Shown: piece by piece, positions 3,432-18,638 of the stretch
Layout of the letters: the number at the start of each line of letters is the position of its first letter
How positions within the stretch are numbered: the first letter of the stretch is position 1
Virus record (IMG/VR): IMGVR_UViG_3300028840_000775
Location: 1-22,611 of that record
Source of the DNA: a virus
DNA length: 22,611 nucleotides
Strand: one strand, 5' to 3'
Made by a program: the position numbers and the translations under genes
The notes under the pieces: generated by a model
The model's input: the letters and a program-made list of their open reading frames with translations, nothing else
Databases searched by the model: none
Told to the model about the DNA's origin: nothing

Positions 3432-4047
3432 ACTCTCTCTCCGCCTGCTCAGGATATAGCTGCTGAATCCCCAGCCGCTTCAAGTATTTGTTATGGTTCG
3501 CTATGGCGTTCTTAGCATCCCCTCGGCCTGCGTAGAACTCTCCCACTGCGTAGTACACTGCCGCCCACTGGTAATCGTCCCGAAGCTTTATGCGCTCCTC
3601 ATCAGACGTGTACCTGTCCGGTATGACAACCGCCTCTATCTCAAGAATGTCGCTACTCGTATCGGCCATAGGATGAAACCCTACAATGTCCACGCCGATC
3701 ATGAAATAACGCTCAGGAGGACCGGAATTGTGCAGCCAACGGGGGTTATATTGAAGTAGCCAGTTAAAGTCCACCTGATCCAGCCGTCGCCGCCTGCCGA
3801 ATATCCACACGTTCGTAAGCCACGCTATGTCATCCTGCCGGAAGTCCAGCCGGTAGAAATGATGGTCTGCCTTTAGAGGCAAATGGTATGTTCTCTTACC
3901 CGACCCCGTAAGCATGGATATCTCTTCTATGGCGTCATTCAAGCTCTCTCGGATAGGGGCCATGCCCGTGTCGTCGTCACTGAAAACGTCAGGAGAAGAA
4001 GTATCCTCCCCTATGAGTTCCAGCACATGCGTTTCAAGCGTGTTCAT
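3373..4047 (-). CDS. Head-tail adaptor protein (gp11/tail tubular A-like)
   Basis: A 224-residue protein that fits the phage adaptor family, which forms the ring joining portal to tail. The N-terminal half has an Asp-rich loop and a helix (MAPIRESLNDAIEEISMLTG) followed by a beta-rich region with LDQVDFNWLLQYNPRW and a 'P-x-[RY]-Y-x-x-G-x-D-I-x-G-F-x-P' strand pair. The C-terminal third is helical (DDYQWAAVYYAVGEFYAG, then a repeated Asn/Lys helix). Its ATG overlaps the TGA of the upstream sulfotransferase gene as ATGA (4047-4044), which shows how tightly the accessory block is stitched to the tail module. It lies directly ahead of the second neck protein and the nozzle, as expected in a podovirus-type cluster. 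Confidence 0.7.
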   Translation of the reverse strand: MNTLETHVLELIGEDTSSPDVFSDDDTGMAPIRESLNDAIEEISMLTGSGKRTYHLPLKADHHFYRLDFRQDDIAWLTNVWIFGRRRRLDQVDFNWLLQYNPRWLHNSGPPERYFMIGVDIVGFHPMADTSSDILEIEAVVIPDRYTSDEERIKLRDDYQWAAVYYAVGEFYAGRGDAKNAIANHNKYLKRLGIQQLYPEQAEREYGLGRSSDPYKAVSERSRW

Positions 4048-4763
4048 CCTAGCAAGATATCCTTGGCTCTGTTAATGTACTCAAGATCAGCAAATGATAG
4101 CACGTCCCCGTAGCCACCCACCTTGCCTTGTCGTATCTTCGCGCTGTCCGGGTTATCAGACGTAGGCGCAAGAGGGCTTCCCATATATTCAGGTTGCCGA
4201 CTTAACTTCTGCATCTTCTTGAAGCTATGCTGTTCCACGGTTTCCTGCAAAAGCTCTGTATATACGTTAAAGCCTATCCAATGAAGCATCTCTCCAAAAG
4301 CGCACAGGCAACTCTCCTGTAAGTCCTCATAGGATATCTTGAATAGGCTCTTGAAGTTGCTCTCATTGTCTTTCATCATACGGTAGAAGCAGCATATCTT
4401 AGCTATCCCGTGCTTCGGGTCGCGCAACATATCTGAGATAGTGCCTTCGTACGGAGGACACTCCCGATGTTTCATGTGGTAATAGTAAGACACCAGCGTA
4501 TCTTCTATCCCCCTGGTTAGAAACACCGTAGGGGCGCATAGCAATGGCGTTAAGTCTGCCTGATGATAGAAACCCCTGCTCTCTCTTGGCTCTGTGCCAA
4601 AGTGCGTCCACTCAGACCCCCATGCTCCCTGTTTCATCTGCTGATACACATCGTATAGCGTCGTGTACTTCAGATTCAGCAACCGGGCCAAGTAATAGTG
4701 ATACATGAAGCATAACCACGTTCTCCCCGACTTCGGGTAGCTGATGAAATACTTCGCAGGCAT
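4044..4763 (-). CDS. PAPS-dependent sulfotransferase (Sulfotransfer_1 type)
   Basis: A 239-residue enzyme predicted to move a sulfonate group from PAPS to a hydroxyl or amine acceptor, probably a sugar. The three family hallmarks are in the right order: the 5'-phosphosulfate loop YPKSGRTWL at residues 9-17 with the catalytic Lys11, the 3'-phosphate segment TRGIEDTLVSYYYH at 83-96 with Arg84 and Ser92, and the C-terminal RQGKVGGYGD at 211-220. The length is slightly short for the family but nothing essential seems missing. No signal peptide is visible, so it acts in the host cytoplasm and must use host PAPS, since no APS/PAPS genes are present here. It starts two bases after the upstream stop without a clear Shine-Dalgarno and overlaps the adaptor gene by ATGA. 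The acceptor is unknown. Confidence 0.9.
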   Translation of the reverse strand: MPAKYFISYPKSGRTWLCFMYHYYLARLLNLKYTTLYDVYQQMKQGAWGSEWTHFGTEPRESRGFYHQADLTPLLCAPTVFLTRGIEDTLVSYYYHMKHRECPPYEGTISDMLRDPKHGIAKICCFYRMMKDNESNFKSLFKISYEDLQESCLCAFGEMLHWIGFNVYTELLQETVEQHSFKKMQKLSRQPEYMGSPLAPTSDNPDSAKIRQGKVGGYGDVLSFADLEYINRAKDILLG

Positions 4764-4765
4764 AG

Positions 4766-5074
4766 TTATGTTTGCCTAAACCAGATATGCACCTTCCCGT
4801 GAGACAACGAATCCAGCTTAAACTTGTGGATCGGCATATACGGAGAGAAAGGGCCAATCTGCCATGCTACCGCCCCAAAGCCTAGCTGATTCGCGACGGG
4901 CTGTATCGTACCCACCAGATTCGCGTCATTGACTGTCATAGCAACCGCACTATCATGGGTAATGTCCCCAGCATCGTCGATCCACTGGATAAGCATTATC
5001 AGCTTGCCTTCGTCCTCCCAGATAGTTCCCACGGTATCCAGCACGTAGGGGTTGCCATCCGTTTGATTCGCCAT
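4766..5074 (-). CDS. Hypothetical 102-residue protein between the sulfotransferases
   Basis: I do not recognise a family. The protein (MANQTDGNPYVLDTVGTIWE...) seems beta-rich, with alternating hydrophobic residues (KLIMLIQWID, AVAMTV, FGAVAWQIG, KVHIWF), as in small virion or attachment-accessory proteins. I chose the ATG at 5074 because GGGGG lies five bases upstream (AAGGGGGATTCATG). A TTG at 5089 in the same frame would place that site inside the coding region. It follows a 72-base gap that may fold, and ends two bases before the sulfotransferase start. Its place between two sulfotransferases suggests it belongs to the accessory block, but its role is unknown. Confidence 0.7.
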   Translation of the reverse strand: MANQTDGNPYVLDTVGTIWEDEGKLIMLIQWIDDAGDITHDSAVAMTVNDANLVGTIQPVANQLGFGAVAWQIGPFSPYMPIHKFKLDSLSHGKVHIWFRQT

Positions 5075-5146
5075 GAATCCCCCTTGCAAGTGGCGGCAGA
5101 CCGTGGATAGGGCACGGCCAATTAAGGGTTTCCCACCGCCTTAGTT
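5075..5146 (-). other. Short intergenic region with nested inverted repeats
   Basis: No open frame is visible in these 72 bases. Two inverted repeats are nested: GGCGG/CCGCC arms at 5136-5140 and 5092-5096, and inside them CCGTG/CACGG arms at 5113-5117 and 5101-5105 with a 7-base loop. There is no T-run after the outer stem, so a rho-independent terminator is unlikely. An mRNA-processing or stabilising structure is possible. It ends in the AAGGGGG ribosome-binding site of the gene at 5074. Confidence 0.35.
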
Positions 5147-5449
5147 TTATGGGCCGCTTACAATCCACTCATTGTAGGCGTGTAGAACCTGTCCGCCCTC
5201 ATGAAAAGCATTCTCGTTCATTGCCTCAAGCTTGTCTATCCGCCTGATCTCATCCGTGGCGTCTACACTCGCAGACATGGGTTCGCTCGGAACATGCGTG
5301 ATATTGATAGCAAAAGGCTCCACGCAAGTCCCTGAACTCGAAGTCGTGACCGAAGCAAGAGTCCCAAACCGGATCACCGCCTGCCCGTTCTTCTCTCCGT
5401 TGACCACCGGAATGCGCTTCATGAATACTGTACGTCTTGTGATAGCCAT
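5147..5449 (-). CDS. Hypothetical 100-residue protein
   Basis: No family recognised. The N-terminus is basic (MAITRRTVFMKRIPVVNG), the middle is beta-like and Ser/Thr-rich (around ASVTTSSSGTC), and the C-terminal third contains a charged helix (DEIRRIDKLEAMNENAF). The start is well supported: GGAGG lies five bases upstream (GGAGGAAACATG). The gene overlaps the end of the upstream sulfotransferase by 31 bases, more than the usual 1-4 bases seen elsewhere here. It could be a small virion component, since similar mixed beta/coil proteins are common in phage structural clusters, but the sequence does not prove this. Confidence 0.7.
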   Translation of the reverse strand: MAITRRTVFMKRIPVVNGEKNGQAVIRFGTLASVTTSSSGTCVEPFAINITHVPSEPMSASVDATDEIRRIDKLEAMNENAFHEGGQVLHAYNEWIVSGP

Positions 5450-6108
5450 GTTTCCTCCATTCTGTTATAGCCTAACAACTTAAAATCATCCTCGTAGAAC
5501 TGATATATAGGCCATCCCTCGCCATGCTGGTAATACTCAAGATATGGCTCGTGACCGCTCTTCCATTCGTTTTTCCACTCAAGCTCTTTCATTGGCATAC
5601 GCAGGGTCTGAAGCAACCGGTGCCAATCCTGTTCCATGTTCTCATAATGGCCTATAAAGTCCATCATGCACTCACCGTTAATGTGTGTATAGTGCGTCTG
5701 GGGCTGACAGTGCATGGCTATGTTCGGCCAGTTGATAATCTCGAAGTCCTTGGTAATCGTGGCCCGTTTTCTGTAACCCGTAGGAATCCCCTTTATGAAG
5801 TCTTCCCACTCAAACCCGAAATGATGACAAAGGCTCACCGCCCTATCGTAAGGGTTCCGCACGAAGCTAAATATGAAGTAATCATCTATACCGTCCTTGT
5901 GGGAAAGATTCTGCAAAAAGCCCATCGCAGCTTCGCCGTGGACAGTCTGTACCCCTAGATCTCTGAAAGCCTGGTGCATAGCCCTGGATGCGCACTTGGG
6001 GCATTGATTGAATATCCACTTTCCCGCAGGGCTGATTATAGGAAAGCCTCTTGTCCTGTACCCGAGTCCTATCAGGTATGAGATAAACATCTCGTTCCGA
6101 GTCATCAT
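5419..6108 (-). CDS. Sulfotransferase family protein (Sulfotransfer_2-like)
   Basis: A 229-residue protein with the layout of the carbohydrate sulfotransferase branch that has a Pro-Lys-Cys loop. Residues 36-44 (CPKCASRAM) match the 5'-phosphosulfate-binding loop with the key Lys38. Residues 82-92 (FVRNPYDRAVS) match the 3'-phosphate-binding motif, with Arg84 and Ser92. Several Trp- and Tyr-rich segments follow, and the C-terminus ends in YNRMEETW. It is not similar enough to the other sulfotransferase (4763-4044) to be a recent copy: the loops belong to different subfamilies. The ATG forms an ATGA overlap with the upstream gene and has GGAGG eight bases upstream. The second codon is also ATG. 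The substrate is unknown, but neighbouring glycosyltransferases suggest a glycan. Confidence 0.8.
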   Translation of the reverse strand: MMTRNEMFISYLIGLGYRTRGFPIISPAGKWIFNQCPKCASRAMHQAFRDLGVQTVHGEAAMGFLQNLSHKDGIDDYFIFSFVRNPYDRAVSLCHHFGFEWEDFIKGIPTGYRKRATITKDFEIINWPNIAMHCQPQTHYTHINGECMMDFIGHYENMEQDWHRLLQTLRMPMKELEWKNEWKSGHEPYLEYYQHGEGWPIYQFYEDDFKLLGYNRMEETWLSQDVQYS

Positions 6109-6713
6109 CCCACGCCCCTCCTCTGGTAATCAATAGACGGCATATAAGCGGTGTTTACTTTCAAGCCCGTCAGCTTCTTGACCTGAATATAATGCTGGAG
6201 CTTCTGTATGGCCCAGTTATACTGCTCACAGTAATCAGGAGCCGGTCCCTGAATATGCCCATCATTGTTCTCGTCCCAGTCAAAGCCGTGATTAACCTGT
6301 AACAAATCGGTTAAGAACCCGTCAGAAGCAAAAAACACCCGCCCGTGTATCCCTACGTTACGGAGCCTGCTTTGCTCGTTCCTGAATATGAATACAACGT
6401 CATCTGTGAACTTAGCTATATCGTCAAATTGCACAACGGGGCTTACGACATTATGGCCCCGAATCACCGGCTTTATGTGCATGTCGTCGTGCATAAAAAG
6501 CGTATCACCGCCATTCCAGAGAGTTTTCAGGTAGTAATCATACGCCCCAAACTCTAGGCCCCGGTTCTCTCGTTCATGATAGTTGTAAGGGTAGCCGTCT
6601 CTGTCCGCCCAGGGCTGATTCCCAATGACAGAGACCGGATGCTTCTTATGCACTTGCCTTAGAAGCCGCATAAAGTCCGGGTTATAGTACCACCCGCATA
6701 CGCATACATTCAT
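6105..6713 (-). CDS. Putative glycosyltransferase (GT-A-like, 202 aa)
   Basis: The protein begins MNVCVCGWYYNPDF, a first beta strand like those in glycosyltransferases. It then has NRGLEFGAYDYYL at residues 50-62, resembling the 'N-x-G-x-[ED]-x-G-A-[YF]' motif of rhamnan-synthesis and related transferases, followed by MHDDMHI at 74-80, a plausible metal-binding Asp-Asp motif. The C-terminal half includes a Tyr/Gln-rich helical region. The start at 6713 is chosen because it forms ATGA with the upstream stop and has GGAG upstream. A longer in-frame reading back to 6776 has no such support and would overlap the previous gene by 67 bases. The protein is short for a glycosyltransferase, so acceptor recognition may be minimal or supplied by a partner. 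Confidence 0.6.
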   Translation of the reverse strand: MNVCVCGWYYNPDFMRLLRQVHKKHPVSVIGNQPWADRDGYPYNYHERENRGLEFGAYDYYLKTLWNGGDTLFMHDDMHIKPVIRGHNVVSPVVQFDDIAKFTDDVVFIFRNEQSRLRNVGIHGRVFFASDGFLTDLLQVNHGFDWDENNDGHIQGPAPDYCEQYNWAIQKLQHYIQVKKLTGLKVNTAYMPSIDYQRRGVG

Positions 6714-8095
6714 CTCGGCTCCTTTTTGATAAAAACGCAGTCGCTCACAATAAGCATGTCCTTTTCCGCCACCCACGCCATGAACTCGGGTCTTTCCATA
6801 AAGACATGCTCTATATTAGAGTCGTCGCGCAAACGCATAAAGTTTGTCATCAGGTTGCCACCAACCGCCAGAGAATCGTATATCCTGTCCAGCGTTTCTC
6901 GCCAGTCTTTCAAGTGCTCAATAGAGTCCAGGCAGATGCAATAATGAAGACTATCAGGCTCAGGCCAGCCAAATGTAACGTTTGTAAGACCATGCTTCTT
7001 GCAGCGCCATTTCAGAAACTCGTATGCGCAAGCACCGTCCACATCCACGAAATAAACGTGCTTGCCGCGCTTTGCCAACTCAAAGCCTACGACACCGCAC
7101 CCGCAGCCAAAGTCCATACCGACCAGCTTGGTCGGTTTGAGTTCTTCAAGCAGAGTTGCCATGGTCAGCTTAGGAAACGCAGCATGATGGAACACTACTT
7201 GCCGCTGTAGCTGTGCTGGACCCATATGCGCATAATACTCTCTCGTTCCGAGGCCGTACTTCTTCTCCAGCTCAAGACTCATCCAGCCATATTTCTCAAA
7301 ACCCTCATTGAATGCCTTGTCCATGTCCCGTTCGCTAATGCCAAGATACTCAGCAGCATCCGTTTTCAGCTTGTAGAGGATATTGTCCGTCTTCCAAGAA
7401 AGCTCCTGCTCTGTGCCGGTAAAGAAATCGTCCTTGCGCGAAAACTGGTTCTTGTTCCTAGACGTTATGACAACACGATCATTCATGACATGCCCGATCT
7501 CAAGGGTAGGATCGTTATACACCTTGAAACCAGCATCCCTGGCCTTCTTGCAAATCTGAACGTCCGTGCCGTAGGTGAACTCAGGCTCAAACCAGGGAGG
7601 CCCGAGCTTGTCAAAGACTTTCATCTTGATGAGCATACATCCACCGCCCTGTACGGCACGTTCTTGTATAGACTCTCCAAGGTCAAGCTCTGATATGAAG
7701 AAAGGGTCTCCCTGCTCGTTCTCGTCCATAATAACGGGCTTGCCATGACCCCCTCGCTGATAGTACACTGGCCCTACGATATCCACGTCATGCTCAAGGA
7801 GCTGCTTGAGAAAGTCATACGCCTCCGCACCCTTGCTAGGATCGCCTGAACTCTCGTTAATGTCTATGATGTGGTCATCGTCCATCATGAGTAGCCAGTC
7901 TGCCGCTACCTGAAGAGCCACTTCTACGATGTTATTCCTTGCCCTGAATTGCTCTGACTTACCCTTAATGCAAAGAAAGAACTCGTAGTCTGTGTATCTT
8001 CTGCCCAAGTGAAAAGCAAACCGCATATAGTCTTCCAGCGTCTCGGGCGGTACGCCGGCATAGCACGGTATGCCTATACATATCCTTTCCTTCAT
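6710..8095 (-). CDS. Glycosyltransferase-methyltransferase fusion protein
   Basis: A 461-residue two-domain enzyme. Residues 1-240 form a family-2-like GT-A domain: ICIGIPCYAG strand at 5-14, then LLMMDDDHIID at 68-78 with the metal-binding Asp triplet at 72-74. Residues about 320-460 form a Rossmann methyltransferase: SAM-binding VGMDFGCGCG at 325-334, an acidic FVDVDG at 349-354, and CLDSIEHL at 388-395, the typical post-motif loop. It probably adds a sugar and methylates it or a neighbouring sugar. The start at 8095 sits seven bases after ATAGGGGG, whose TAG is the upstream gene's stop. An in-frame start at 8152 would overlap that gene by 49 bases and is rejected. It overlaps the next gene by ATGA. 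Another fusion of the same design lies at 17693-16338. Confidence 0.85.
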   Translation of the reverse strand: MKERICIGIPCYAGVPPETLEDYMRFAFHLGRRYTDYEFFLCIKGKSEQFRARNNIVEVALQVAADWLLMMDDDHIIDINESSGDPSKGAEAYDFLKQLLEHDVDIVGPVYYQRGGHGKPVIMDENEQGDPFFISELDLGESIQERAVQGGGCMLIKMKVFDKLGPPWFEPEFTYGTDVQICKKARDAGFKVYNDPTLEIGHVMNDRVVITSRNKNQFSRKDDFFTGTEQELSWKTDNILYKLKTDAAEYLGISERDMDKAFNEGFEKYGWMSLELEKKYGLGTREYYAHMGPAQLQRQVVFHHAAFPKLTMATLLEELKPTKLVGMDFGCGCGVVGFELAKRGKHVYFVDVDGACAYEFLKWRCKKHGLTNVTFGWPEPDSLHYCICLDSIEHLKDWRETLDRIYDSLAVGGNLMTNFMRLRDDSNIEHVFMERPEFMAWVAEKDMLIVSDCVFIKKEPR

Positions 8096-8099
8096 AAAT

Positions 8100-8107
8100 C
8101 CCCCTAT
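8100..8107 (-). promoter_or_regulatory. Ribosome-binding site ATAGGGGG fused to the upstream stop codon
   Basis: On the minus strand the junction reads CCGATAGGGGGATTTATG. The TAG is the stop codon of the CmcI-like gene and the GGGGG serves the fusion enzyme starting at 8095. This site decides the start, because an earlier in-frame ATG or alternative start has no such site. Confidence 0.7.
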
Positions 8108-8877
8108 CGGATTCTCTCTAAGTAGCCCTCCGGATTGAGGGTTACGAACCACTTTTCCCGTTGCCGGTCTATGGTAAAGTCCTGGTTTCCCGCTAAGAAC
8201 TTATGCACGGCCAGATACGCCCCTGGTCTTTCATCGTTAGGCTTACCGGACGGTATAAACTCCCCAAGCAGTGTATCCTCTACAATGAGATACTGACCCT
8301 TGGTAACTAGCGGAGCATAGGTGTTAAGTACCTTCAGGGTGTGCTCATACTCGTGGGTGGTATCTTCAATGACCATAACCCTATCTTCAGGTCTAATCAG
8401 CGAGGCTACTTCGTCAAACACCTCGCAAGCGTCCCCCTGAACCCATTTAATGCCAGGATACTCACGGGCCTTGTCGTAAAGATAGCCATGCTCAATATCC
8501 ACCCCTATCACACCCCTGGCGTCGGGGATCTCCCCGCCCAAGAGTATGTCCCTGAGAAACATTGTAGAACCGCCTGCTTGATTCCCAAGCTCAACAATAA
8601 CCGTAGGCTTACGGGCACATATGATCTCCTGGAATATCCAAAGATCGTTAGGCATCTTACAAACATGCACGCCCTTATAGCCCGTAAGCGTTCTCACTAC
8701 GTCCAAGATCATACCGAGATACTGAGCCATAGGCATATGAAGGTTGTCCTTGTTTAGCCAAGTGCCATATAGCTCCCGAAGCTCTATCAAAGACACCATG
8801 CGGTAGCCGTCGGGCACCGGGTCATCCTTACTGCCTATCTTAACCTGCTGGAAGGGAGATATCTGACTCTCAGGCAT
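8104..8877 (-). CDS. CmcI-type SAM-dependent methyltransferase (cephalosporin hydroxylase family)
   Basis: A 257-residue protein of the family named after CmcI, whose members are mostly sugar or secondary-metabolite O-methyltransferases. Visible marks are the helix MPNDLWIFQEIICARKP around residues 75-91, the SAM-binding segment VIVELGNQAGGS at 93-104, the acidic GVDIEH at 125-130 and VIEDTTHEYEH further on, which has the Asp and His residues expected near a metal-assisted active site. The likely start is ATG 8877, six bases after GAGGGGGTG. A TTG at 8892 is in frame but lies on the wrong side of that site. It overlaps the zinc-ribbon gene upstream by 8 bases and ends inside the next gene's ribosome-binding site. 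Sugar O-methylation fits the glycosyltransferases downstream. Confidence 0.8.
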   Translation of the reverse strand: MPESQISPFQQVKIGSKDDPVPDGYRMVSLIELRELYGTWLNKDNLHMPMAQYLGMILDVVRTLTGYKGVHVCKMPNDLWIFQEIICARKPTVIVELGNQAGGSTMFLRDILLGGEIPDARGVIGVDIEHGYLYDKAREYPGIKWVQGDACEVFDEVASLIRPEDRVMVIEDTTHEYEHTLKVLNTYAPLVTKGQYLIVEDTLLGEFIPSGKPNDERPGAYLAVHKFLAGNQDFTIDRQREKWFVTLNPEGYLERIR

Positions 8878-9103
8878 CAGGCACCCCCTCAAATAAGGCT
8901 ATGAACTCCGGGTCAATGTTTTCGCGTTTCAAAGCCTCCATCTCTTCTGAACTAAGCGTAAGCACGTTGCGCATACGTCTGTTCCCGCATTTCAAGCACA
9001 TACCATGCTCCCAGATAGTCTCTCGTAACACTATCTTTGCGCAGTCAGTACACCGCACTACCGGATCATGAAATACCTTGTTGTCCTTATCGTACTTATC
9101 CAT
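8870..9103 (-). CDS. Small zinc-ribbon protein (77 aa)
   Basis: Four cysteines are arranged as two CxxC knuckles: Cys18/Cys21 and Cys36/Cys39, fourteen residues apart, which is a classic zinc-ribbon spacing. The C-terminal half is a short acidic helix (SSEEMEALKRENIDPEFIALF). The protein probably binds zinc and another macromolecule, but the sequence does not show whether that is DNA, RNA or protein. The start is set by GATAGGGGG six bases upstream. It is the first full-length gene after the hidden Cys-rich mini-gene and opens accessory block B. It is one of five small Cys-rich proteins in this window. Confidence 0.75.
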   Translation of the reverse strand: MDKYDKDNKVFHDPVVRCTDCAKIVLRETIWEHGMCLKCGNRRMRNVLTLSSEEMEALKRENIDPEFIALFEGVPDA

Positions 9104-9107
9104 TATT

Positions 9108-9115
9108 CCCCCTAT
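9108..9115 (-). promoter_or_regulatory. Ribosome-binding site ATAGGGGG
   Basis: The minus strand reads CTGATAGGGGGAATAATG ahead of the zinc-ribbon gene at 9103. Here the TAG is not the stop of the upstream mini-gene, which ended earlier at 9128. The motif therefore recurs even where it does not have to supply a stop codon. Confidence 0.6.
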
Positions 9116-9127
9116 CAGAATGTTGGT

Positions 9128-9283
9128 TCAACTCTTTGCCCAATAAACAAAAGGGCAATCCTTTTCGTTGCATAGCCGGGCCTGAAATACCCTGCTGGCC
9201 GTGCAATAGGATCCCTTCGCTTCTTTAGAGACCAGCGGACATTTAGCGCTGAGAGTTTTGAACGTCTTTTTCTTCTCTGCCAA
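9128..9283 (-). CDS. Hidden Cys-rich mini-protein (51 aa, TTG start)
   Basis: A TTG-started frame encodes 51 residues beginning MAEKKKTFKTLSAKCPLVSK. It has four cysteines at positions 15, 27, 38 and 43, and a Trp/Tyr near the C-terminus (CPFVYW), the look of a small zinc-binding protein. AAGGGGG lies four bases upstream of the TTG. The frame fills what would otherwise be a gap of 230 bases between the capsid-module terminator and the zinc-ribbon gene. Its lysine-rich N-terminus and ordered cysteine spacing argue against chance. No known family is recognised. Confidence 0.6.
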   Translation of the reverse strand: MAEKKKTFKTLSAKCPLVSKEAKGSYCTASRVFQARLCNEKDCPFVYWAKS

Positions 9284-9294
9284 ACTACCCCCTT

Positions 9295-9327
9295 AAAACG
9301 GGGCGGGAGCTACATCTGTCCCGCCCC
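9295..9327 (-). terminator. Rho-independent terminator after the capsid module
   Basis: On the minus strand a perfect 9-bp stem, GGGGCGGGA (9327-9319) with TCCCGCCCC (9308-9300), encloses a 10-base loop and is followed by GTTTT. It begins eight bases after the stop codon of the second decoration-like gene. The T-run is short, so it may be partial, letting some transcripts continue into accessory block B. The opposite strand lacks a T-run after the stem. Confidence 0.75.
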
Positions 9328-9334
9328 TTCGCTG

Positions 9335-9787
9335 TTACAGCGCCTTGATAAACGCTGCCATTGTTGTAGTTGTCCATGATGAATAAGCCGCCAGGGCAAA
9401 TCCCATTGTCCGGTAGTTCAGTGTACCATTCGGATCGTGCCCTTCTGCGCAAAATCCGCCAGCCAATGCAGGCCGCAGACCAGTATGTGCCACAATCACA
9501 TCATCCGATGTGCAAGCACGAACCCTGACTGCTGAATGATACCCGTACACCTGCACAAGCCCGTAGGTATTATGGGCAATGGTTTCTGCTGCCACTCCAG
9601 CAACCGAAACACCAAGACCGGTTGTCATACATGCCGTCGAAGGCAAGGTTACGCCCACCCCGTCCGCGTCCGCGCTGGCATCCCACTCTACAACGTACCC
9701 GTTTGCAAGGGACGCTGTGGAATAGCTGTTCTTCACGACAACGAAGACCTTCTCTGGGTCACTCCTGGAAACACGTCTGAATAACAT
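9335..9787 (-). CDS. Decoration-like virion protein, paralogue B
   Basis: A 150-residue protein about 84% identical by my hand alignment to the gene just upstream (10255-9800), differing by 23 substitutions and one missing residue near position 112. Both start MLFRRVSRSDPEK and end MAAFIKAL. The sequence is Gly-, Ala- and Val-rich with alternating hydrophobic residues, suggesting a compact beta protein. Placed directly after the major capsid gene, it is likely a capsid decoration or head-surface protein, but I recognise no named family. This copy has extra cysteines (two where paralogue A has Gly or Ala). The start follows AAGGAGG by seven bases. A strong terminator lies just after it. Confidence 0.7.
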   Translation of the reverse strand: MLFRRVSRSDPEKVFVVVKNSYSTASLANGYVVEWDASADADGVGVTLPSTACMTTGLGVSVAGVAAETIAHNTYGLVQVYGYHSAVRVRACTSDDVIVAHTGLRPALAGGFCAEGHDPNGTLNYRTMGFALAAYSSWTTTTMAAFIKAL

Positions 9788-9799
9788 CTCTACACCTCC

Positions 9800-10255
9800 T
9801 TACAGCGCCTTAATGAAAGCCGCCATTGTGGTAGATGTCCAGGAAGTCCAGCCTGCAAGGGCAAACCCCATCTTCTGATAGTTCAATGTGCCGTCCGGGT
9901 CGTGGCCCTCAGCGCACCATACTCCACCTGCCAACGGGGGCCGTAAACCGGAATGAGCGACAATCGCGTCCGCAGACGTAGCAGCACGCACCCTGACCGC
10001 TGAGTGATAACCATATACCTGAACCAAGCCATAAGCTTCATGAGCAATGGTTTCGGTGGCTACACCAGCAACCGAGGCACCTAGCCCCGTGGTCATGCCT
10101 GCCGCAGAGGGCTTAGTAACCCCTACACCGTCTGCATCCGTGGTTGCGTCCCACTCCACTACATAGCCATTGGCAAGGCTGGCGGTAGAATAGCTGTTCT
10201 TAACCACGACAAAGATTTTCTCCGGATCACTTCTCGATACTCGTCTAAATAACAT
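9800..10255 (-). CDS. Decoration-like virion protein, paralogue A
   Basis: A 151-residue protein directly after the major capsid gene, with a close paralogue following it. It carries the same layout: basic N-terminus, a VVEWDA segment at about 32-37, a Gly/Ala/Val-rich core with YGLVQVYGYHSAVRVRA, and a C-terminus rich in Trp, Thr and Ser. Third-codon positions differ widely between the two copies while the protein stays alike, so the duplication is old and both copies are kept by selection. A capsid decoration or head-surface role is inferred from position. The start has AAAAAGGAG upstream, and that site may be masked by a small hairpin (10258-10286). Confidence 0.7.
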   Translation of the reverse strand: MLFRRVSRSDPEKIFVVVKNSYSTASLANGYVVEWDATTDADGVGVTKPSAAGMTTGLGASVAGVATETIAHEAYGLVQVYGYHSAVRVRAATSADAIVAHSGLRPPLAGGVWCAEGHDPDGTLNYQKMGFALAGWTSWTSTTMAAFIKAL

Positions 10256-10257
10256 CT

Positions 10258-10286
10258 CTTCTCCTTTTTGTGACTGACAGGAGAAA
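10258..10286 (-). promoter_or_regulatory. Possible hairpin masking the ribosome-binding site of paralogue A
   Basis: On the minus strand TTCTCC (10285-10280) can pair with GGAGAA (10264-10259), which is the Shine-Dalgarno of the gene at 10255. The loop is 15 bases. Six pairs make only a weak stem, so regulation is speculative. Confidence 0.25.
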
Positions 10287-10323
10287 CCCTATCCAACTCC
10301 CCGTTTTGTTAGAAGGTTAAGGT

Positions 10324-11445: not shown

Positions 11446-11460
11446 TGACTCACCTCCTTG

Positions 11461-12306: not shown

Positions 12307-12325
12307 TGTTACCTCCTATCGCAGG

Positions 12326-12616: not shown

Positions 12617-12750
12617 TGCTTCTTCCTCGTGACCGGCCTTTTAGAGCCTCTCCGGGAGTTGTGAATACGAGCGGCCTTTTTCTTAGCGGCCTTGTCGCTC
12701 ATACCCTGCCTTTTGAACTTGTCGCGCATCTTAGTGTATCCTTTAGGCAT
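12613..12750 (-). CDS. Hidden small basic protein (45 aa)
   Basis: An ATG at 12750 overlaps the portal stop codon (TAATG) and opens a 45-residue frame, MPKGYTKMRDKFKRQGMSDK and on, ending RKKH. Nearly half the residues are Lys or Arg, including KAAKKKAAR and RRGSKRPVTRKK. It ends by overlapping the next gene's TTG start. The tight overlaps on both sides and the filled gap make it a convincing gene. The composition suggests nucleic-acid binding, perhaps a small DNA- or RNA-binding virion protein. I recognise no family. Confidence 0.75.
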   Translation of the reverse strand: MPKGYTKMRDKFKRQGMSDKAAKKKAARIHNSRRGSKRPVTRKKH

Positions 12751-14597
12751 TATGTTGACCCTCCCATGCCCGGTAACATGCCTGCTATCTGGCCCCCGAC
12801 GGAAGACGTGGGCCTTGTCTCACCTACCCCCGGCTGACTGCCCGTGGCACCCGGCGCAGGCACCTGCCCGCCCATGATCTTTTCGCCTATCTTCAGCAAC
12901 TCATTCACCATCTGCTCATCTTCAATATGATGCAAATCGGCCATCTTCTTGACAATCGTGGGCGACAGCATAAGGTGCCAAAAATTGCCCAGCAAGGATA
13001 AAAACGCCATCCAGCTTGTACGCTCCATCTGGGGCAACTGAGGAATAGTAGACCCGATATTGACATCATATCCGAACTCCCCGGCTATATCGTCATAGTC
13101 AGTCTCCCTGACCGTAACCCATAGCTCTCCCTCCGGCCCCTTGATCCGTACGGCTTCGTCACGAGATATATGAACCTTGACCTGCATATCAAGCTTACGT
13201 GCTATGTCCAGCACGAAGTCTATAACTTCGCTCATAGCATCGCCTTCTTTGATCTCAAGGCGCTTATCAAGAATACCTGCCTGAGTAGCCGAATCTGCCC
13301 CTGCTATGCCCCTGGCCTCATCAGACTGCCCCCCGAATAGCTCTATCATGTCCTGATTGAGATACCCTATCTCGCTATAGGCCTGCTGATCCAGGGGAGC
13401 GTCACGGATAGGGGTCACTGCGTTCGGGTCTATGGCCTCTATAATCGTGCCGTCCTCTCCGCTTTCCAGCTTGCTTCTCTCATCATGATCCACGGAAGGG
13501 TTGACTATATACTTACGGTTAAATCTCTTCCTGTGGGTAAGTAGCCTGCTACGGGCCAAATTAAACTCTTTCTGAGCATCTAAGCCCTGGCTAATAGGGG
13601 GTATAGGGTACGGCGAGTTATCGCGCAGAGTAAAGCGTAGGATGCTGAAAGGATGCTTTTCTATGCCGTCCGGCAGTGCGTCAGGGGCCATCAGGGGGAT
13701 AACGCCCTCTTCGGCCACGATAAGCCACTCATCATGCTTCAAGTCGTATATTTCCCAGTACCGGAAGCTGTTCTCTTTATCCTTGGTATGCCAGTTGTCG
13801 GAAAAGTTGGACCCCTTGCTGGAAGCGTCCATATCGCCCTTCTTGCGATGCTCCCGTTCCTTGTCCTCATCGTCCTGGGTAATGCCCCGCTTTTCAATGT
13901 CCCTGAGCGCCTTCTTGCTGAACCTGCGATCACGATTAGCTTCTTTCTTGGTGATGGTCACGCCTTGAGCTACCCATGACCATGTATCCTCCAGTGGCCC
14001 TGCATCCTCATCCCAGAGAAAGTCGTCGGGGTGTATGCGCTCTATACAGTATCTCTCGTTTATGGGCACTTCCCCCGGCTCGGTAAGAGGCTCCCCTGTC
14101 TCTTCGTCTATCAGAATCTCATCATTTTCCCCGACCATGGGCTTGCCGCCGTCAGGGTTCTTCTCGATGTCGGCCTTGTAGTGCGTCTTAGCTACGCCAT
14201 AGGAGAACTGAGCGTCCTGTATGGAAAGACGGGTCTTTTTCTTGAGGTTAAGCTCTGCCTTGAGATAATTCAGCATAGCCTGACGGATACTCCCCCTGGA
14301 CTCCCATAGCTCCCGCTTCTCCGGTGCAGGATCAAAGGCTCGCTTCAAGTTAACGTAGAAATACGGGTCTGCCTTGTAAAGCGATGGAAGGGTAGTCTTT
14401 AAGTGGCTGTAAACCTTGTTAATCGTTATCCACTCGTTAGCAGGATAACCGGGATTCTGACGGCCATCAAGGTACGCTAACGCAAGATCAACCCGGAAGA
14501 GGTCTTTCCAGTTCTTCCTGACCGCTTTTGCCCGATTGATTCTTTCCATCCATCTTTTTTGGACGTCCTGGGCGCTTTCTTTCCGTCTTCGTGGCAT
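12750..14597 (-). CDS. Portal protein
   Basis: A 615-residue protein that forms the head vertex channel for DNA entry and exit. Evidence includes the basic N-terminal helix (VQKRWMERINRAKAVRKNWK), the Asp-rich and charged wing region, PFSILRFTLRDNSPYPIPP followed by QGLDAQKEFNLARSRLL (a characteristic portal helix), and AIDPNAVTPIRDAPLDQQAY with a stem-like helix and an 'IAGADSATQAGILDKRLEI' stretch. Neighbouring scaffold and capsid genes support it. The first ATG (14597) has a weak site, and the ATG at 14549 (Met17) is an alternative. It overlaps the preceding gene by 110 bases, or 62 if Met17 is used. Its C-terminus is Pro/Gly-rich, and its TAA stop overlaps the basic mini-gene's start. Confidence 0.85.
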   Translation of the reverse strand: MPRRRKESAQDVQKRWMERINRAKAVRKNWKDLFRVDLALAYLDGRQNPGYPANEWITINKVYSHLKTTLPSLYKADPYFYVNLKRAFDPAPEKRELWESRGSIRQAMLNYLKAELNLKKKTRLSIQDAQFSYGVAKTHYKADIEKNPDGGKPMVGENDEILIDEETGEPLTEPGEVPINERYCIERIHPDDFLWDEDAGPLEDTWSWVAQGVTITKKEANRDRRFSKKALRDIEKRGITQDDEDKEREHRKKGDMDASSKGSNFSDNWHTKDKENSFRYWEIYDLKHDEWLIVAEEGVIPLMAPDALPDGIEKHPFSILRFTLRDNSPYPIPPISQGLDAQKEFNLARSRLLTHRKRFNRKYIVNPSVDHDERSKLESGEDGTIIEAIDPNAVTPIRDAPLDQQAYSEIGYLNQDMIELFGGQSDEARGIAGADSATQAGILDKRLEIKEGDAMSEVIDFVLDIARKLDMQVKVHISRDEAVRIKGPEGELWVTVRETDYDDIAGEFGYDVNIGSTIPQLPQMERTSWMAFLSLLGNFWHLMLSPTIVKKMADLHHIEDEQMVNELLKIGEKIMGGQVPAPGATGSQPGVGETRPTSSVGGQIAGMLPGMGGST

Positions 14598-14841
14598 CTT
14601 CTAAGTCCGACTTGAGAATTTCAACCTCTAATTCAAGATATTCAAGCTTCTTGGCAATGGCTACAAAGAACTCATGTAGATCCCATTTGCCCTTGCCCGA
14701 CTTGATGAGGAAGCGATTGCCTATCTGCTTGCGAGAGTCAACGTCTAGCGTCTGTACTATCCAGTCAACCTCTCGAAAGGCGTCCTCCTGAAGCTTGATA
14801 AATCCCGCCTTGTCCACTACGTCGCGTTCAATTTCTGCCAT
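14488..14841 (-). CDS. Hypothetical 117-residue protein with coiled coil and AT-hook-like tail
   Basis: No named family. The first two thirds look helical, with a coiled-coil-like run (LEYLELEVEILKSDLEDATK, about 67-86). The C-terminal tail has RPGRPKK, an AT-hook-like core, followed by Lys/Ser/Gly-rich residues. The start at 14841 lies after GGGAGATAGGGC. The gene overlaps the portal by 110 bases, a long overlap for this genome, which makes either its end or the portal's first ATG uncertain. A role in DNA packaging or capsid assembly is plausible from position alone. Confidence 0.55.
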   Translation of the reverse strand: MAEIERDVVDKAGFIKLQEDAFREVDWIVQTLDVDSRKQIGNRFLIKSGKGKWDLHEFFVAIAKKLEYLELEVEILKSDLEDATKTERKRPGRPKKMDGKNQSGKSGQEELERPLPG

Positions 14842-14852
14842 GCCCTATCTCC

Positions 14853-15167
14853 CTATGAATTATCGAAATGCGGTGTATAAAACACCGTAACCTCAGATGT
14901 TCCCTGGTCGTTTGCTACATATATCCCGTTCTTGCACTTAATCCCGGCCCCCGGCATAAACCCGTTCAACCCTAGCGCAGACGCATCATACGTGTTTGTC
15001 GGGACTACTTCTTTGCCGGATGCAGCAGTATTGTCGTATACGGTGATGGTGGGGTCGTTTACAGCGTCGGTGCCGATAAGAAAGCCGAAGAGAAGAGCAG
15101 GACCGTCATGAACTAGCCCTCCGCCGTCGAATTGCGCAACCTCTGTGGCTACGTTATTGATTCTCAT
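14853..15167 (-). CDS. Hypothetical 104-residue beta-rich protein
   Basis: I chose the ATG at 15167 because it overlaps the upstream TGA as ATGA and has GGAGG six bases upstream (GGAGGATTTGTATG). A longer in-frame version reaching 15200 lacks such support. The protein is Gly-, Ala- and Val-rich and contains DPTITVYDNTAASGKEVVP, a turn pattern seen in small phage structural or fibre-associated proteins of unknown detailed function. No signal peptide or membrane segment is visible. Confidence 0.65.
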   Translation of the reverse strand: MRINNVATEVAQFDGGGLVHDGPALLFGFLIGTDAVNDPTITVYDNTAASGKEVVPTNTYDASALGLNGFMPGAGIKCKNGIYVANDQGTSEVTVFYTPHFDNS

Positions 15168-15484
15168 ACAAATCCTCCATACAAGACCAGACTTGCGCAT
15201 AGGGCCAGAAGATAATAGATGAGCCTCCGCTGTTTCTGTATCATATTTATCGAGTCTCTGGCAAGCGCTTCTTGTTTTTCAAACTCTTTTCCCGATACTT
15301 TCTGAGCTTCTTTATAGATTTCACGCACATACGTTCTCATGTTCGGCTGACCGTCACGGTTGTCATAGAAATTCACGCAAGCCTGCTTAACCTGCGCAGG
15401 AGTTAGACCGTAAGGCCGTCTTCTCACTATAAGCGGGATAGGCACGTTCAAGGACTTGTAATATTCTATGATTGCGGATTTCAT
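15164..15484 (-). CDS. Hypothetical protein with C-terminal membrane anchor (106 aa)
   Basis: The ATG at 15484 overlaps the acyltransferase stop as TAATG. The N-terminal two thirds are soluble, mainly helical and basic (VRRRPYGLTPAQVKQACVNF, then AQKVSGKEFEKQEALARDS). The last 19 residues or so are hydrophobic (LIYYLLALCASLVLYGGF), forming one membrane segment. This gives a tail-anchored protein with its bulk in the cytoplasm. A holin, spanin or membrane tether for the glycan enzymes upstream are all possible. The sequence does not decide between them. Confidence 0.65.
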   Translation of the reverse strand: MKSAIIEYYKSLNVPIPLIVRRRPYGLTPAQVKQACVNFYDNRDGQPNMRTYVREIYKEAQKVSGKEFEKQEALARDSINMIQKQRRLIYYLLALCASLVLYGGFV

Positions 15485-16341
15485 TAAAAAGCAAGTACTT
15501 GCGTTTCCTTCGCGTCTTTTGACTCAATCCATTTGCCGCGCTTTGCCCGTGCCGGAACGCCTACATAGGTTACTCCCGGCTCCGTGTCGTGCGCTACCAC
15601 GGCTCCTGCACCGATCTTGCTGCCTTTACCGAGACGCACCCCCGGTAAAATAACAGCGGCCACCCCGATACGAACCTCATCTTCAATCACGGGAGCGATA
15701 TATGTCTTCGGTCCTTTCCACTTCGGATCAATCGTCTTATCGTTAGTAAGAATTGCCTTGCTGCCTATGTATACCTCACTGCCTACGATTGCATTTGCGC
15801 AGACGTTAGCGTACATCCCGCAACGGGTATTCTCGCCCAGTTGAGCACCCTCCGCTATAAAGCAATAGTCACGAATATCGCAACCGTCAGAGAGAAGTAC
15901 CCGAGGCCTGATATGCACATAATTCCCTATCCATACATCCTTGCCGATGGTCACATCTTCGTCTATGATAGAATATTGACCAAGATGATAGTTCCGCTTC
16001 TCTACTTTCTTAGCAGGAATACCAAGATAAAGCCCTGGTTCTATACAGTCCTTTGTTACAACCGACCCCGCTCCAACTACCACATTGTCGCCAATTACTA
16101 CGCCTGGAAGCAAAATTGCGCCTGCGGAGATGTAGCAATTAGAGCCTATAGTAACGCCCTTGTTCTGACCGTCAGGGGTCTTCTCAAGCGTCATACAGCT
16201 AGGGCCAAGAGTCGTGTTATCACCTACCCTTAGACCGTTAGCAAGATGCACCGCTGCCTTAACCTCTACGTTATCTCCAAGAACCACGTCCTCTCGAATA
16301 ACGCAATTCTCTTTGATTATAACGTTCTTACCCGTTTTCAT
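15484..16341 (-). CDS. Tandem hexapeptide-repeat acyltransferase (left-handed beta-helix)
   Basis: A 285-residue protein made of hexapeptide repeats ([LIV]-G-x-x-x-x), which build a left-handed beta-helix. It seems to hold two complete acyltransferase domains in tandem. The first ends around residue 116 and the second around 270, and both end with the same signature: 'LPGVVIGDNVVVGAGSVV ... YLGIPAKKVEKR' against 'LPGVRLGKGSKIGAGAVV ... YVGVPARAKRGK'. A His at 32 and His at 251 could be catalytic in one or both. Such enzymes usually acetylate sugars from acetyl-CoA, often in surface polysaccharides. It starts as ATGA with the upstream fusion gene, with GGGAGAAGG ahead. The two-domain layout is unusual. 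Confidence 0.85.
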   Translation of the reverse strand: MKTGKNVIIKENCVIREDVVLGDNVEVKAAVHLANGLRVGDNTTLGPSCMTLEKTPDGQNKGVTIGSNCYISAGAILLPGVVIGDNVVVGAGSVVTKDCIEPGLYLGIPAKKVEKRNYHLGQYSIIDEDVTIGKDVWIGNYVHIRPRVLLSDGCDIRDYCFIAEGAQLGENTRCGMYANVCANAIVGSEVYIGSKAILTNDKTIDPKWKGPKTYIAPVIEDEVRIGVAAVILPGVRLGKGSKIGAGAVVAHDTEPGVTYVGVPARAKRGKWIESKDAKETQVLAF

Positions 16342-17693
16342 GCCTTCTCCCAGCCTAAAGATCCTGTAGGTTTGTTTTCGTAGAACTGCTTGTACCCGTA
16401 GCCCGTCATTACTTTCTTAAACTCTCCAAGGCCCCAAGGAAGAACGTGAGTGCCCTGATAGTTCTTCCAAGGGATCTGCCTGTCAGACATACATTCTAGG
16501 GGCAATTCTATTAAGACATACGGAATATGTGCAATCTTTTCCAGGGTTCGCAAACATTGATCTGGCGTTAGGTGTTCCAACGTGTGCGAAGATACAAACG
16601 CATCTGCTTCTGGCAGTTTCTCGACTTCGTGAAACCATTTGCCAAGCTTGATCGGCTTATACCGTTCATCCTTGAGTATGCCGTTGCTGATAGGCGCAGG
16701 GAAATCGTACCCGGTCCACATCCCTATGCCGTTTGAGAGCATACTTTTGGCTAAGGCACCGTCATAGCATCCTAGCTCTATCACTCGTGGGTTCTCTGGC
16801 AAATGGTCGAACATCTCCTTGAAGGGCTTTGCATGAAAGCGTCTTTGAGTCGGATAAAGCCTGTAAAGCTGATCGCTGATGTACCTGCGTTCTTCAAAGT
16901 TAAGCTCATGAGACACTTGCCTAAAGGCGTTCCAGCTAATCCAGGTCGGCTCGTCCTCCACCCGCAAAGACGGAAACACCTTGCAAAGTCTTTCCTGCTT
17001 AGTCATGGCAAGGTAGTCTTTCTCCCACCTTGGAGTTATCTCATAGATTCCTGGCGGCACTTTTCTGTCCGACTGCCGCTGTATAATGTTCCAAGAATCC
17101 GGCTTTTTCCCCAGCCCACTCAGATGATAATACCCCGTGCCCCAGCGGTAGATAAAGTATGCCTCATCTTTTTCTAAGCGTTGTTGATGAAACGTGCCTT
17201 TACCAAGCCGTTTCAAGCGTTCTCGGAATACCTGATCGCTGCCGCTGTTTATCTGCGCATCTTGTCCTGCAACCTTCCAAGCATCTTTAGTAAAGGGATG
17301 AACACCGGCATTGGAACCGCGCTTAAATGTAACTCGCATTCCGTTCATAAACCAGTACCCGTTGAACTCCAGGTGGTCCCAGCCTTCCTGCATGTACTTC
17401 AAGATAGTGGATAAGGCCCACGGAAGTTGCAGATCATCATCGGGCCATGGCGCAACTAGCGTGTCGTCGGGCACCATGTCCATCCAAGCATTGCATTTGT
17501 CCCCAAGCGTAGGGTATCGAGTATCGCTGTTGATAACCCGCACTCTTGGATGCTCAAACTTATACTTTACACCTTCCTGATCGTTCAGGATAATCAATTC
17601 CGCGTCCGTATAGTCCTGCCGCAGAAAGGACTCCACCGCTTCGTTTAGAAGCGCAGGCCGTCCGTATGTTAAGCACCTACATCGTAGCTTCAA
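16338..17693 (-). CDS. Glycosyltransferase-methyltransferase fusion protein
   Basis: A 451-residue two-domain enzyme. Residues 1-230 are a family-2 glycosyltransferase: the first strand and loop are MKLRCRCLTYGRPALLNEAV, and PWPDDDLQL at 82-90 carries the metal-binding Asp triplet. Residues about 300-440 are a SAM-dependent methyltransferase with VIELGCYDG at 304-312 and SSHTLEHL at 368-375, the latter like the post-motif region of methyltransferases acting on sugars or lipids. The start is TTG (17693), 17 bases inside the previous gene, with only a weak GGTGAAC upstream, so it may be coupled. It has the same architecture as the fusion at 8095-6710, but the sequences are only distantly alike. 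Confidence 0.85.
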   Translation of the reverse strand: MKLRCRCLTYGRPALLNEAVESFLRQDYTDAELIILNDQEGVKYKFEHPRVRVINSDTRYPTLGDKCNAWMDMVPDDTLVAPWPDDDLQLPWALSTILKYMQEGWDHLEFNGYWFMNGMRVTFKRGSNAGVHPFTKDAWKVAGQDAQINSGSDQVFRERLKRLGKGTFHQQRLEKDEAYFIYRWGTGYYHLSGLGKKPDSWNIIQRQSDRKVPPGIYEITPRWEKDYLAMTKQERLCKVFPSLRVEDEPTWISWNAFRQVSHELNFEERRYISDQLYRLYPTQRRFHAKPFKEMFDHLPENPRVIELGCYDGALAKSMLSNGIGMWTGYDFPAPISNGILKDERYKPIKLGKWFHEVEKLPEADAFVSSHTLEHLTPDQCLRTLEKIAHIPYVLIELPLECMSDRQIPWKNYQGTHVLPWGLGEFKKVMTGYGYKQFYENKPTGSLGWEKA

Positions 17694-18441
17694 TTCGGTT
17701 CACCAACTGTACCCCAAAATGGTCGTAGATGGGCGCAGGGTCCATCTCCAACTCCTTAAAACCTAAGAGATAGTTACGCACCCGGTCCTGAATGTTGATA
17801 GGATAGCCCGTGCCATTTCTGAATAGATGTATCCACCTCATCCAGGGGAGGCAAAGCACCTTCCGTCCGGCCCTTCTATACTTCTCGTGAATATACCCCT
17901 CATCCGCGCCAAAGCCCCGATACTCAGGGTGAAACCCTAGCCACGCCTCCGTGCGGCATCCGAACAGCCCCAACCCGTGCATGGGTATTTCAAAAGGCTC
18001 GTCTGGTATGGGGTCTTGTGTAGCCCACACGCCCCACATATCCGACCGCCACTCAGGGTCCATGTGCGTTACGGGCGTTTTAAGGTCGTCATAAAGCATG
18101 ACTCCATGAATCAGATCATCCCCTTCCCATAACCTGTCCAGAGACCCCGGCATGAGCATTACGTGTGAGTCTATGCAGATGGTTAGCTCGCCCTCGGAAT
18201 GTTTGAATATCTGCTCTCTTGGCTGCGTAGTGCCTACGTTCTCAAGATACTCAATATAGCGTACAGGGATCTCTTTGCCCGTAAGCCACGCATCTACAAA
18301 GTTCTTCAGCTTTGAATCCCCATAGTTGTCTACGATGATTATCTCGCAGTCCGTTAGGTCGTGAAACATCCGCAGGGCTTGGATAGTAAAATACACCCCC
18401 TCATAATCGTTATACGCAGCCATGCCGATAGTTAGCTTCAT
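17677..18441 (-). CDS. Family-2 glycosyltransferase (GT-A fold)
   Basis: A 254-residue enzyme. The first strand and nucleotide-binding region MKLTIGMAAYNDYEGVYFTI and CEIIIVDNYGDSKL (about 32-46) are classic for family 2. The metal site appears as CIDSHVMLMPGS at 89-100, with Asp91-Ser-His instead of the usual Asp-x-Asp, a known variation. The later GADEGYIHEKYRRAG supplies acidic residues at the acceptor side. The gene overlaps the Cys-rich mini-gene as ATGA, and its end overlaps the next gene by 17 bases. It follows directly after the Thr/Ser-tract protein's stop and the mini-gene, so that protein is a tempting acceptor. The donor sugar is unknown. Confidence 0.85.
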   Translation of the reverse strand: MKLTIGMAAYNDYEGVYFTIQALRMFHDLTDCEIIIVDNYGDSKLKNFVDAWLTGKEIPVRYIEYLENVGTTQPREQIFKHSEGELTICIDSHVMLMPGSLDRLWEGDDLIHGVMLYDDLKTPVTHMDPEWRSDMWGVWATQDPIPDEPFEIPMHGLGLFGCRTEAWLGFHPEYRGFGADEGYIHEKYRRAGRKVLCLPWMRWIHLFRNGTGYPINIQDRVRNYLLGFKELEMDPAPIYDHFGVQLVNRIEATM

Positions 18442-18638
18442 TTAATGGCCTTTAGCTTCTCAGCCTCCTCAAAATCGTCATAGCAGAAATCGTCACGCCC
18501 GGTTGACGGCCATACCAGCGTGAACTCGTCGCTTGCTGAAGCCTTTGCAATGGTAGGTGCCGGTGCATTCGCCCTGCAAAAGCCGAAGTTGTTATTACGG
18601 TACTCCCATTTCTTACAGTCTGCGCATCTGTTCGCCAT
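18438..18638 (-). CDS. Cys-rich mini-protein (66 aa)
   Basis: A 66-residue protein with Cys5, Cys8, Cys21 and Cys52: a CxxC knuckle near the N-terminus and two single cysteines, a plausible zinc site. It starts MANRCADCKKWEYRNNNFGF and ends in a charged helix (FEEAEKLKAIK). The start follows ATAGGGGG by five bases, and the gene ends with an ATGA overlap to the glycosyltransferase. Similar mini-proteins open accessory block B. No function is known. Confidence 0.7.
   Translation of the reverse strand: MANRCADCKKWEYRNNNFGFCRANAPAPTIAKASASDEFTLVWPSTGRDDFCYDDFEEAEKLKAIK

Follow-up and report, generated by a model that had tools for sequence, protein, structure and literature searches.

Two glycan-tailoring gene blocks among the head genes of a podovirus-like phage: candidate self-glycosylation systems for virion proteins

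Why should a phage carry, in the midst of its virion genes, enzymes that attach and modify sugars, and on what would they act? The question is raised by the IMG/VR record IMGVR_UViG_3300028840_000775, a genome fragment of 22,611 bases that was analysed in its entirety (the window). All called genes are on the minus strand, and two groups of glycan-modifying genes, termed here block 1 (18441-15484) and block 2 (8877-4044), lie in the late operon. The order of transcription is TerS, TerL, a 96-amino-acid (aa) protein, a Thr/Ser-tract protein, block 1, portal, a scaffold-like protein and the major capsid protein (MCP), followed by two tandem 'decoration' proteins (a positional name alone, for a ~150-aa protein after the MCP), block 2, the adaptor and further structural genes. 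The portal and adaptor match SU10 families and the MCP matches phrog_9953; the closest GenBank MCPs are ~25-28% identical. The phage is podovirus-like.

An earlier note, made from the sequence alone, read the blocks as one split set that tailors an existing acceptor, either a virion protein or a host surface glycan. A check of open reading frames (ORFs) bears out the coordinates and open frames of both blocks. Gene junctions of -4, -17, -4, -1 and -4 nt confirm that overlaps thread both blocks into the late operon, as had been proposed. Sugar-nucleotide genes, also said to be missing, were not found in the window, an absence that carries little weight because the record is a 22.6-kb fragment. 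The proposed enzyme list was recovered by Pfam, PHROGs and AlphaFold2 (AF2) models, including three glycosyltransferases (GTs); the supposed fourth GT (6105-6776) has no match in the profile libraries searched. Tailoring of an existing acceptor alongside virion gene expression is thus supported, and comparison with relatives makes a virion protein a better candidate than a host glycan. Each block probably serves to glycosylate the phage's own virion proteins, together with which it is expressed. The notion of one split set did not hold: block 2 appears to be a fixed cassette of the lineage, and block 1 a separately acquired module.

A glycosyltransferase family linked to Thr/Ser tracts

The span first delimited (4044-18638) stops 9 bases short of the gene that encodes the probable acceptor of block 1. 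This Thr/Ser-tract gene (18647-19876, minus strand, 409 aa) follows the stop of ORF 19877-20167 with a gap of 0, and 8 nt separate its end from the small ORF 18438-18638. Residues 219-385 of its product are 167 uninterrupted Thr or Ser residues (140 T, 27 S), preceded by a ~217-aa N-terminal part whose fold has no assignment. All four Thr codons are used near-evenly in the tract (entropy 1.98 of 2 bits), and identical adjacent codons are rarer (0.14) than expected by chance (0.19). Together these properties point to selection at the protein level. A DNA microsatellite was considered as the origin of the tract and was ruled out by the even codon use. No comparable tract is present in other members of the phage's clade.

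The GT encoded at 17677-18441 (minus strand; PF00535, E 8e-10, class GT2) is the proposed initiating O-glycosyltransferase. Structure prediction, which the earlier note had suggested as a check, gives GT-A folds for this enzyme and for the block 2 protein 6710-8152. The model of 17677-18441, built from a 41-sequence alignment, has a predicted local distance difference test score (pLDDT) of 93.9, and in a Foldseek search of the PDB polypeptide GalNAc-transferases (ppGalNAc-Ts) make up 49 of the 50 best matches (E 1e-13 to 3e-10, TMq 0.65-0.79). D91-x-H93, H205 and the motif GFG..EGYIHEK are invariant across 41 relatives; D91-x-H93 and H205 are presumably the metal ligands, by analogy with the ppGalNAc-T layout. 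The predicted fold suggests that the enzyme works like a member of family GT27, without being established as one. Sequence comparison with the eukaryotic enzymes gave mixed results: a 3-sequence profile of the GT matches GALNT1 at E 0.007, the 41-sequence profile does not list GALNT1, and phmmer with the catalytic segment, run for an alignment with GALNTs, gave no GALNT match. Relatives of the GT were found in 263 IMG/VR stretches and in 115 stretches of bacterial genome contigs; tblastn with the GT and two relatives against 50,697 GenBank phages gave zero matches.

Linkage between this GT family and Thr/Ser tracts was assessed on ORFs called mechanically, with a tract defined by a threshold, at loci dereplicated at 90% GT identity only. 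Of the 52 dereplicated phage loci, 26 have a Thr/Ser(/Pro) tract in the ORF immediately 5' of the GT; among other nearby ORFs the count is 25 of 732 (odds ratio 28, p 2e-20). Six alternative tract definitions give 21-27 of 52 upstream, 14-25 of 753 elsewhere and 1 of 31 downstream. The association is also seen in bacterial contigs (10/74 upstream against 7/679 other ORFs, p 5e-7). Before dereplication, a tract occurs at 57 of 81 GT loci and at one of 80 MCP control loci. A joint tree of phage and bacterial GTs is noisy, with long branches, and a phage-only tree was used instead. In this tree the tract trait is widely spread, with 10 changes against a shuffled mean of 17.9, and the four nearest neighbours of the window GT (contigs L083, L084, L085 and L089) all have a tract. 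Contigs L102, L112 and L152 have no local tract, and poly-Thr runs are found elsewhere in their records.

The pairing of GT and tract gene thus recurs in unrelated phages, and the gene order recurs in one contig, L089, where a tract gene, a GT with a methyltransferase (MT)-like C-half and a second GT are joined by 4-nt overlaps. In L096 a Sulfotransfer_2 gene, a second GT and the block 1-type GT adjoin, near a Thr/Pro-rich protein. Genes of the GT29 sialyltransferase family follow in the Thr-tract/GT operons of L126 (7340-7900) and L156 (8848-9414), and a GT60-type GT follows in L099. In L082 the tract protein is encoded just 3' of a tail-collar protein, which is consistent with a virion location.

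Other features of these loci may be mentioned. The L093 record also has a gene of the GT29 (animal-type sialyltransferase) family. At two tract-bearing loci, Radical SAM/SPASM-like proteins (L115:6914-7996, L099:6943-7998) are encoded directly 5' of the GT, and perhaps another protein modification takes place there. Runs of at least 16 Thr codons are common in IMG/VR contigs (at least 120; L162-L240), often as linkers in large proteins and mostly with no adjoining GT.

A fixed cassette beside the capsid gene

The phage's clade was defined by relatives found with an MCP profile, whose MCPs are 52-68% identical to that of the window; nearest-neighbour MCP identities are 54-82%, with one identical pair besides. 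GT genes occupy the interval from the decoration protein to the adaptor in all 25 contigs that display it, window included. Two cassette types are present. Type A (14 contigs) has a zinc-ribbon-like protein, a GT-MT fusion and usually a ~100-aa protein; fusions from 13 relatives, at one position, are 38-50% identical over their full length to 6710-8152 of the window. Type B (11 contigs) has a GT4-type GT, a separate MT (9/11), in most cases a zinc-ribbon-like protein, and a further GT, related to the fusion's N-half (hhalign 99.5%). The occurrence of fused and split forms indicates that GT and MT are functionally linked. The small proteins c12 and c19 were considered as one family and found unrelated by profile comparison.

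A search of IMG/VR from the fusion alone gave 21 full-length or edge-cut relatives, with 8 contigs new with respect to the MCP search. In 21 of 21 the genes for MCP, decoration and zinc-ribbon proteins precede the fusion; the adaptor comes after it except in two contigs that end first. Three contigs (L368, L372 and L377) retain the usual level of identity in the decoration protein (49-52%) and fusion (41-43%), while the MCP (39-44%) and adaptor (24-27%) have diverged. From these comparisons the decoration-to-fusion stretch behaves as if it moves as a unit, and this co-conservation makes the decoration protein the first candidate for the block 2 acceptor.

The core cassette was not found in MCP relatives at ~32-35% identity and, accordingly, block 2 belongs to one lineage. 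The nearest GenBank MCP relatives, MW202803 (28%) and OP596615 (26%), have no annotated GT between the MCP and the next head genes. At the heart of block 2 is a core cassette whose position is fixed within its lineage.

Block 1 presents a different picture. In most clade relatives the portal gene is directly after TerL, and no block 1 homologues were found between TerL and portal in these relatives. From gene content and position, block 1 appears to be a transferable module acquired separately from block 2. The earlier note had asked for relatives with conserved block order, and held that scattered morons without common position would speak against its proposal. Block 2 keeps its position in every relative seen (25/25 and 21/21); the block 1 site between TerL and portal is not kept among close relatives.

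Gene complement of the blocks and neighbouring genes

All genes of both blocks are on the minus strand. Block 1 is preceded by a small Cys-rich protein (18438-18638, 66 aa), located between the tract gene and the GT and overlapping the latter by 4 nt. The GT is followed by a 451-aa fusion of a GT2 domain and an S-adenosylmethionine (SAM) methyltransferase (16338-17693; PF00535 1.8e-5, PF13489 (Methyltransf_23) 5.6e-6). In L089 a relative of its GT half comes after the tract gene and the GT; in L096 one comes before the GT. Next is a two-run hexapeptide-repeat protein of the sugar O-/N-acyltransferase type (15484-16341) with seven PF00132 stretches; its top NCBIfam model is a NeuD/PglB sugar acetyltransferase (1.7e-43, under the model's cut-off). 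The block ends with a 106-aa protein (15164-15484; 1-nt overlap with the acyltransferase gene) that has a hydrophobic C-terminal segment, LIYYLLALCASLVLYGGFV, possibly a membrane anchor.

Before block 2 are the two tandem copies of the ~150-aa decoration protein (9335-10255), the proposed block 2 acceptor, whose family, c0, is directly after the MCP in the clade. A small CxxC zinc-ribbon-like core-cassette protein (8870-9103) is next; the related families c13 and c18 (hhalign 96%) are mostly ahead of the core GT in both cassette types. A CmcI/rhamnosyl O-methyltransferase-type enzyme (8104-8877; PF04989 1.3e-37) has counterparts at the same place in L001 and L363, and as a single query found no relatives in viral contigs. 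The core GT-A and SAM methyltransferase fusion (6710-8152) has a C-half with a Pfam methyltransferase match (1e-9) and an N-half with no Pfam GT match in the window sequence. Its AF2 model (pLDDT 87) matches STIV A197, LH3, GalNAc-Ts and UbiG-type MTs, and relatives of the fusion match PF00535; the GT half is supported on these grounds. The product of 6105-6776, a GT by position alone, matched nothing in Pfam, NCBIfam or PDB profiles, and relatives follow the core fusion in L001, L363, L373 and L374. A Sulfotransfer_2-type carbohydrate sulfotransferase (5419-6108; PF03567 1.5e-9; phrog_3347 'galactose-3-O-sulfotransferase', 3e-14) displays CPKCASR, which resembles a 3'-phosphoadenosine-5'-phosphosulfate (PAPS) loop, and RNPYDRAVS. 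The ~100-aa core-cassette protein (5147-5449) is of family c12, found in 12 of 14 type A contigs. Last is a Sulfotransfer_1-type sulfotransferase (4044-4763; PF00685 2e-10) with the motifs YPKSGRTW and RGIEDTLVS and a 4-nt overlap with the adaptor gene. Accessory genes vary; L001 has in addition a DegT aminotransferase, a GNAT protein and a Sulfotransfer_3-like protein.

Some properties of neighbouring genes are also of interest. The mechanical TerL ORF of the window begins late: at 21520-21640 a Walker A stretch, FGGAAGPGKTD, is upstream of it in the same open frame, with no ATG, GTG or TTG in frame ahead, and therefore the start codon is probably another one. In L018 (381-2855) and L020 (4029-6788) the TerL ORFs are 824 and 919 aa compared with the usual ~480, an apparent N-terminal extension. 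The MCP gene of L024 (1879-3640) is in parts, with a 172-aa ORF (2168-2686) between them; this may be an intron or an insertion with its own gene. A 115-aa protein ahead of the portal in the window (14853-15200) shares 56% identity with a protein that immediately precedes the adaptor in L010; such small proteins seem to be mobile between sites.

Proposed function, alternatives and related systems

In the proposed scheme the ppGalNAc-T-like GT of block 1 would place the first sugar on Thr/Ser residues of the tract, with a host nucleotide sugar as donor. The GT-MT protein 16338-17693 would extend and methylate the chain and the hexapeptide enzyme would acylate it; the block 2 sulfotransferases might sulfate it. 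The particle would thereby acquire a mucin-like brush, dense and charged. In block 2 the core fusion, together with the CmcI-type methyltransferase, the 6105-6776 protein and the two sulfotransferases, would add sugars to a protein associated with the capsid; the decoration protein, whose genes immediately precede the block, is the likeliest target. Gene content, operon layout, enzyme folds, the position of block 2 and the link of the block 1 GT family to Thr tracts come from the data themselves, whereas the acceptors, the sugar, the sequence of reactions, the virion location and a role in shielding, adsorption or stability are putative.

Several observations weigh against the scheme. The block 1 GT product ends at 254 aa and its model is a GT domain alone, with no C-terminal ricin-type lectin domain, and its Pfam class is GT2 rather than GT27; membership in GT27 is withheld for these two reasons. 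GT27 ppGalNAc-Ts have such a lectin domain (PMC4202792). Half of the GT relatives have no adjacent tract. In the reverse direction, the GT family is present at only 3 of 79 generic poly-Thr loci, and GT2 proteins are 1 of 100 neighbours of generic poly-Thr genes, in both cases among the matches listed; the claim is therefore confined to the block 1 GT family, and the argument goes from GT to tract and not from tract to GT. The N-terminal part of the tract protein has no family match, and its place in the virion is therefore deduced from operon context. As a query this part found no relatives in viral contigs and no tblastn match in GenBank phages. The assignment of the block 2 acceptor derives from position and co-conservation, and sulfation of block 1 glycans is putative.

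Could the enzymes instead alter a glycan of the host surface (O-antigen, capsule or exopolysaccharide) for superinfection exclusion or seroconversion, the late operon being a mere carrier? Polysaccharide loci often include GT2, hexapeptide and sulfotransferase enzymes, and the block 1 GT family is also present in bacterial genome contigs, 64 of 74 without an adjacent tract. This appears unlikely, however, as block 2 keeps its place next to the decoration gene in every relative, the block 1 GT family is linked with Thr-tract genes, and no GtrA/GtrB-like membrane pair and no annotated envelope function were found among the scanned ORFs. A scan of the fragment's proteins by Pfam, PHROGs and NCBIfam, with a few small ORFs unscanned, gave no match to a gtrABC-type system (GtrA flippase, GtrB bactoprenol GT, membrane GT). 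The tract might also be a disordered linker or stalk, with the block 1 GT having another target and their adjacency arising from shared, exchangeable receptor-interaction regions; poly-Thr tracts are indeed common in IMG/VR, mostly with no GT adjoining. This is quite improbable given that tracts occur specifically in the ORF immediately 5' of the GT (1/31 downstream and 22/753 elsewhere in the same loci) and that the GT has the fold of enzymes whose substrates are Thr/Ser peptides. DNA hypermodification, with modified bases as the substrates of the GTs and MTs, is a very remote prospect. One block 2 relative has a weak match to PF20691 (TET-associated GT; E 0.003, under cut-off), but no dioxygenase (TET/JBP), hydroxymethylase or nucleotide kinase was found in the window proteins scanned; sulfotransferases and Thr tracts are foreign to such pathways, and the genes sit among head genes. 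Glycosylation of the phage's own virion proteins thus remains the preferred explanation.

How does this compare with known systems? O-glycosylation of Thr/Ser-rich tracts by ppGalNAc-T-type enzymes is generally seen as a eukaryotic trait, and mucin-type glycosylation resembles block 1 in the predicted fold of the initiating GT, the DxH motif with a distal His, the dense Thr/Ser tract, tailoring by sulfotransferases and, in some phage relatives, GT29 sialyltransferase-family genes. It differs in that the phage proteins are cytoplasmic, the GT has no lectin domain and is of Pfam class GT2, the acceptor would be a phage protein, and methyl and acyl tailoring is added. Such O-glycosylation on Thr/Ser is said not to occur in bacteria (PMC5504323). 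In mycobacteriophages Che8, Corndog and Myrna, virion capsid and tail proteins carry glycans attached by phage-encoded GTs (work by Freeman et al. (2023), cited in PMC12363180 and PMC11256854). Here too phage-encoded GTs lie in or near structural genes, and the purpose would be similar; the accounts in these citing papers report no Thr/Ser-tract acceptor, sulfotransferase or ppGalNAc-T-like enzyme. A tblastn comparison of the block 1 GT and block 2 fusion with the 50,697 phage records gave no mycobacteriophage match at E limits of 1e-3 and 1e-5. Sulfated or methylated bacterial surface-glycan loci (exopolysaccharide, lipopolysaccharide, capsule) share GT2, PF00685/PF03567, hexapeptide acyltransferases and PF04989, but the window has no detected polymerase, flippase, initiating phosphotransferase or nucleotide-sugar gene, and the blocks sit among head genes. 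STIV A197, a viral GT-A protein (PDB 2c0n), is the top Foldseek match of the fusion's GT half; it is from an archaeal virus and has no methyltransferase half, and the likeness seen is one of fold. No paper on the full combination of enzymes and tract was found by title and abstract in the open-licence literature.

More broadly, these loci may represent mucin-type O-glycosylation of a phage-encoded kind that is widespread and so far undescribed, with its own Thr/Ser-tract virion 'mucin', a dedicated ppGalNAc-T-like enzyme and swappable tailoring enzymes (sulfo-, methyl-, acyl- or GT29 sialyltransferase-family), a proposal that is attractive but tentative. On this view the charged glycan coat of the particle would be what receptors, grazers or the defences of the host encounter. 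A probable enzyme and its acceptor adjoin across many uncultured phages, in a GT family that is unmatched in GenBank phage records. The GT-MT cassette that one podovirus lineage keeps next to its capsid gene would be a second, independent system with few candidate acceptors. If this is correct, the purpose of phage sugar genes becomes directly testable, a compact enzyme-acceptor pair would be available for glycoengineering, and phage particles would be glycosylated, and possibly sulfated, on an unrecognised scale.

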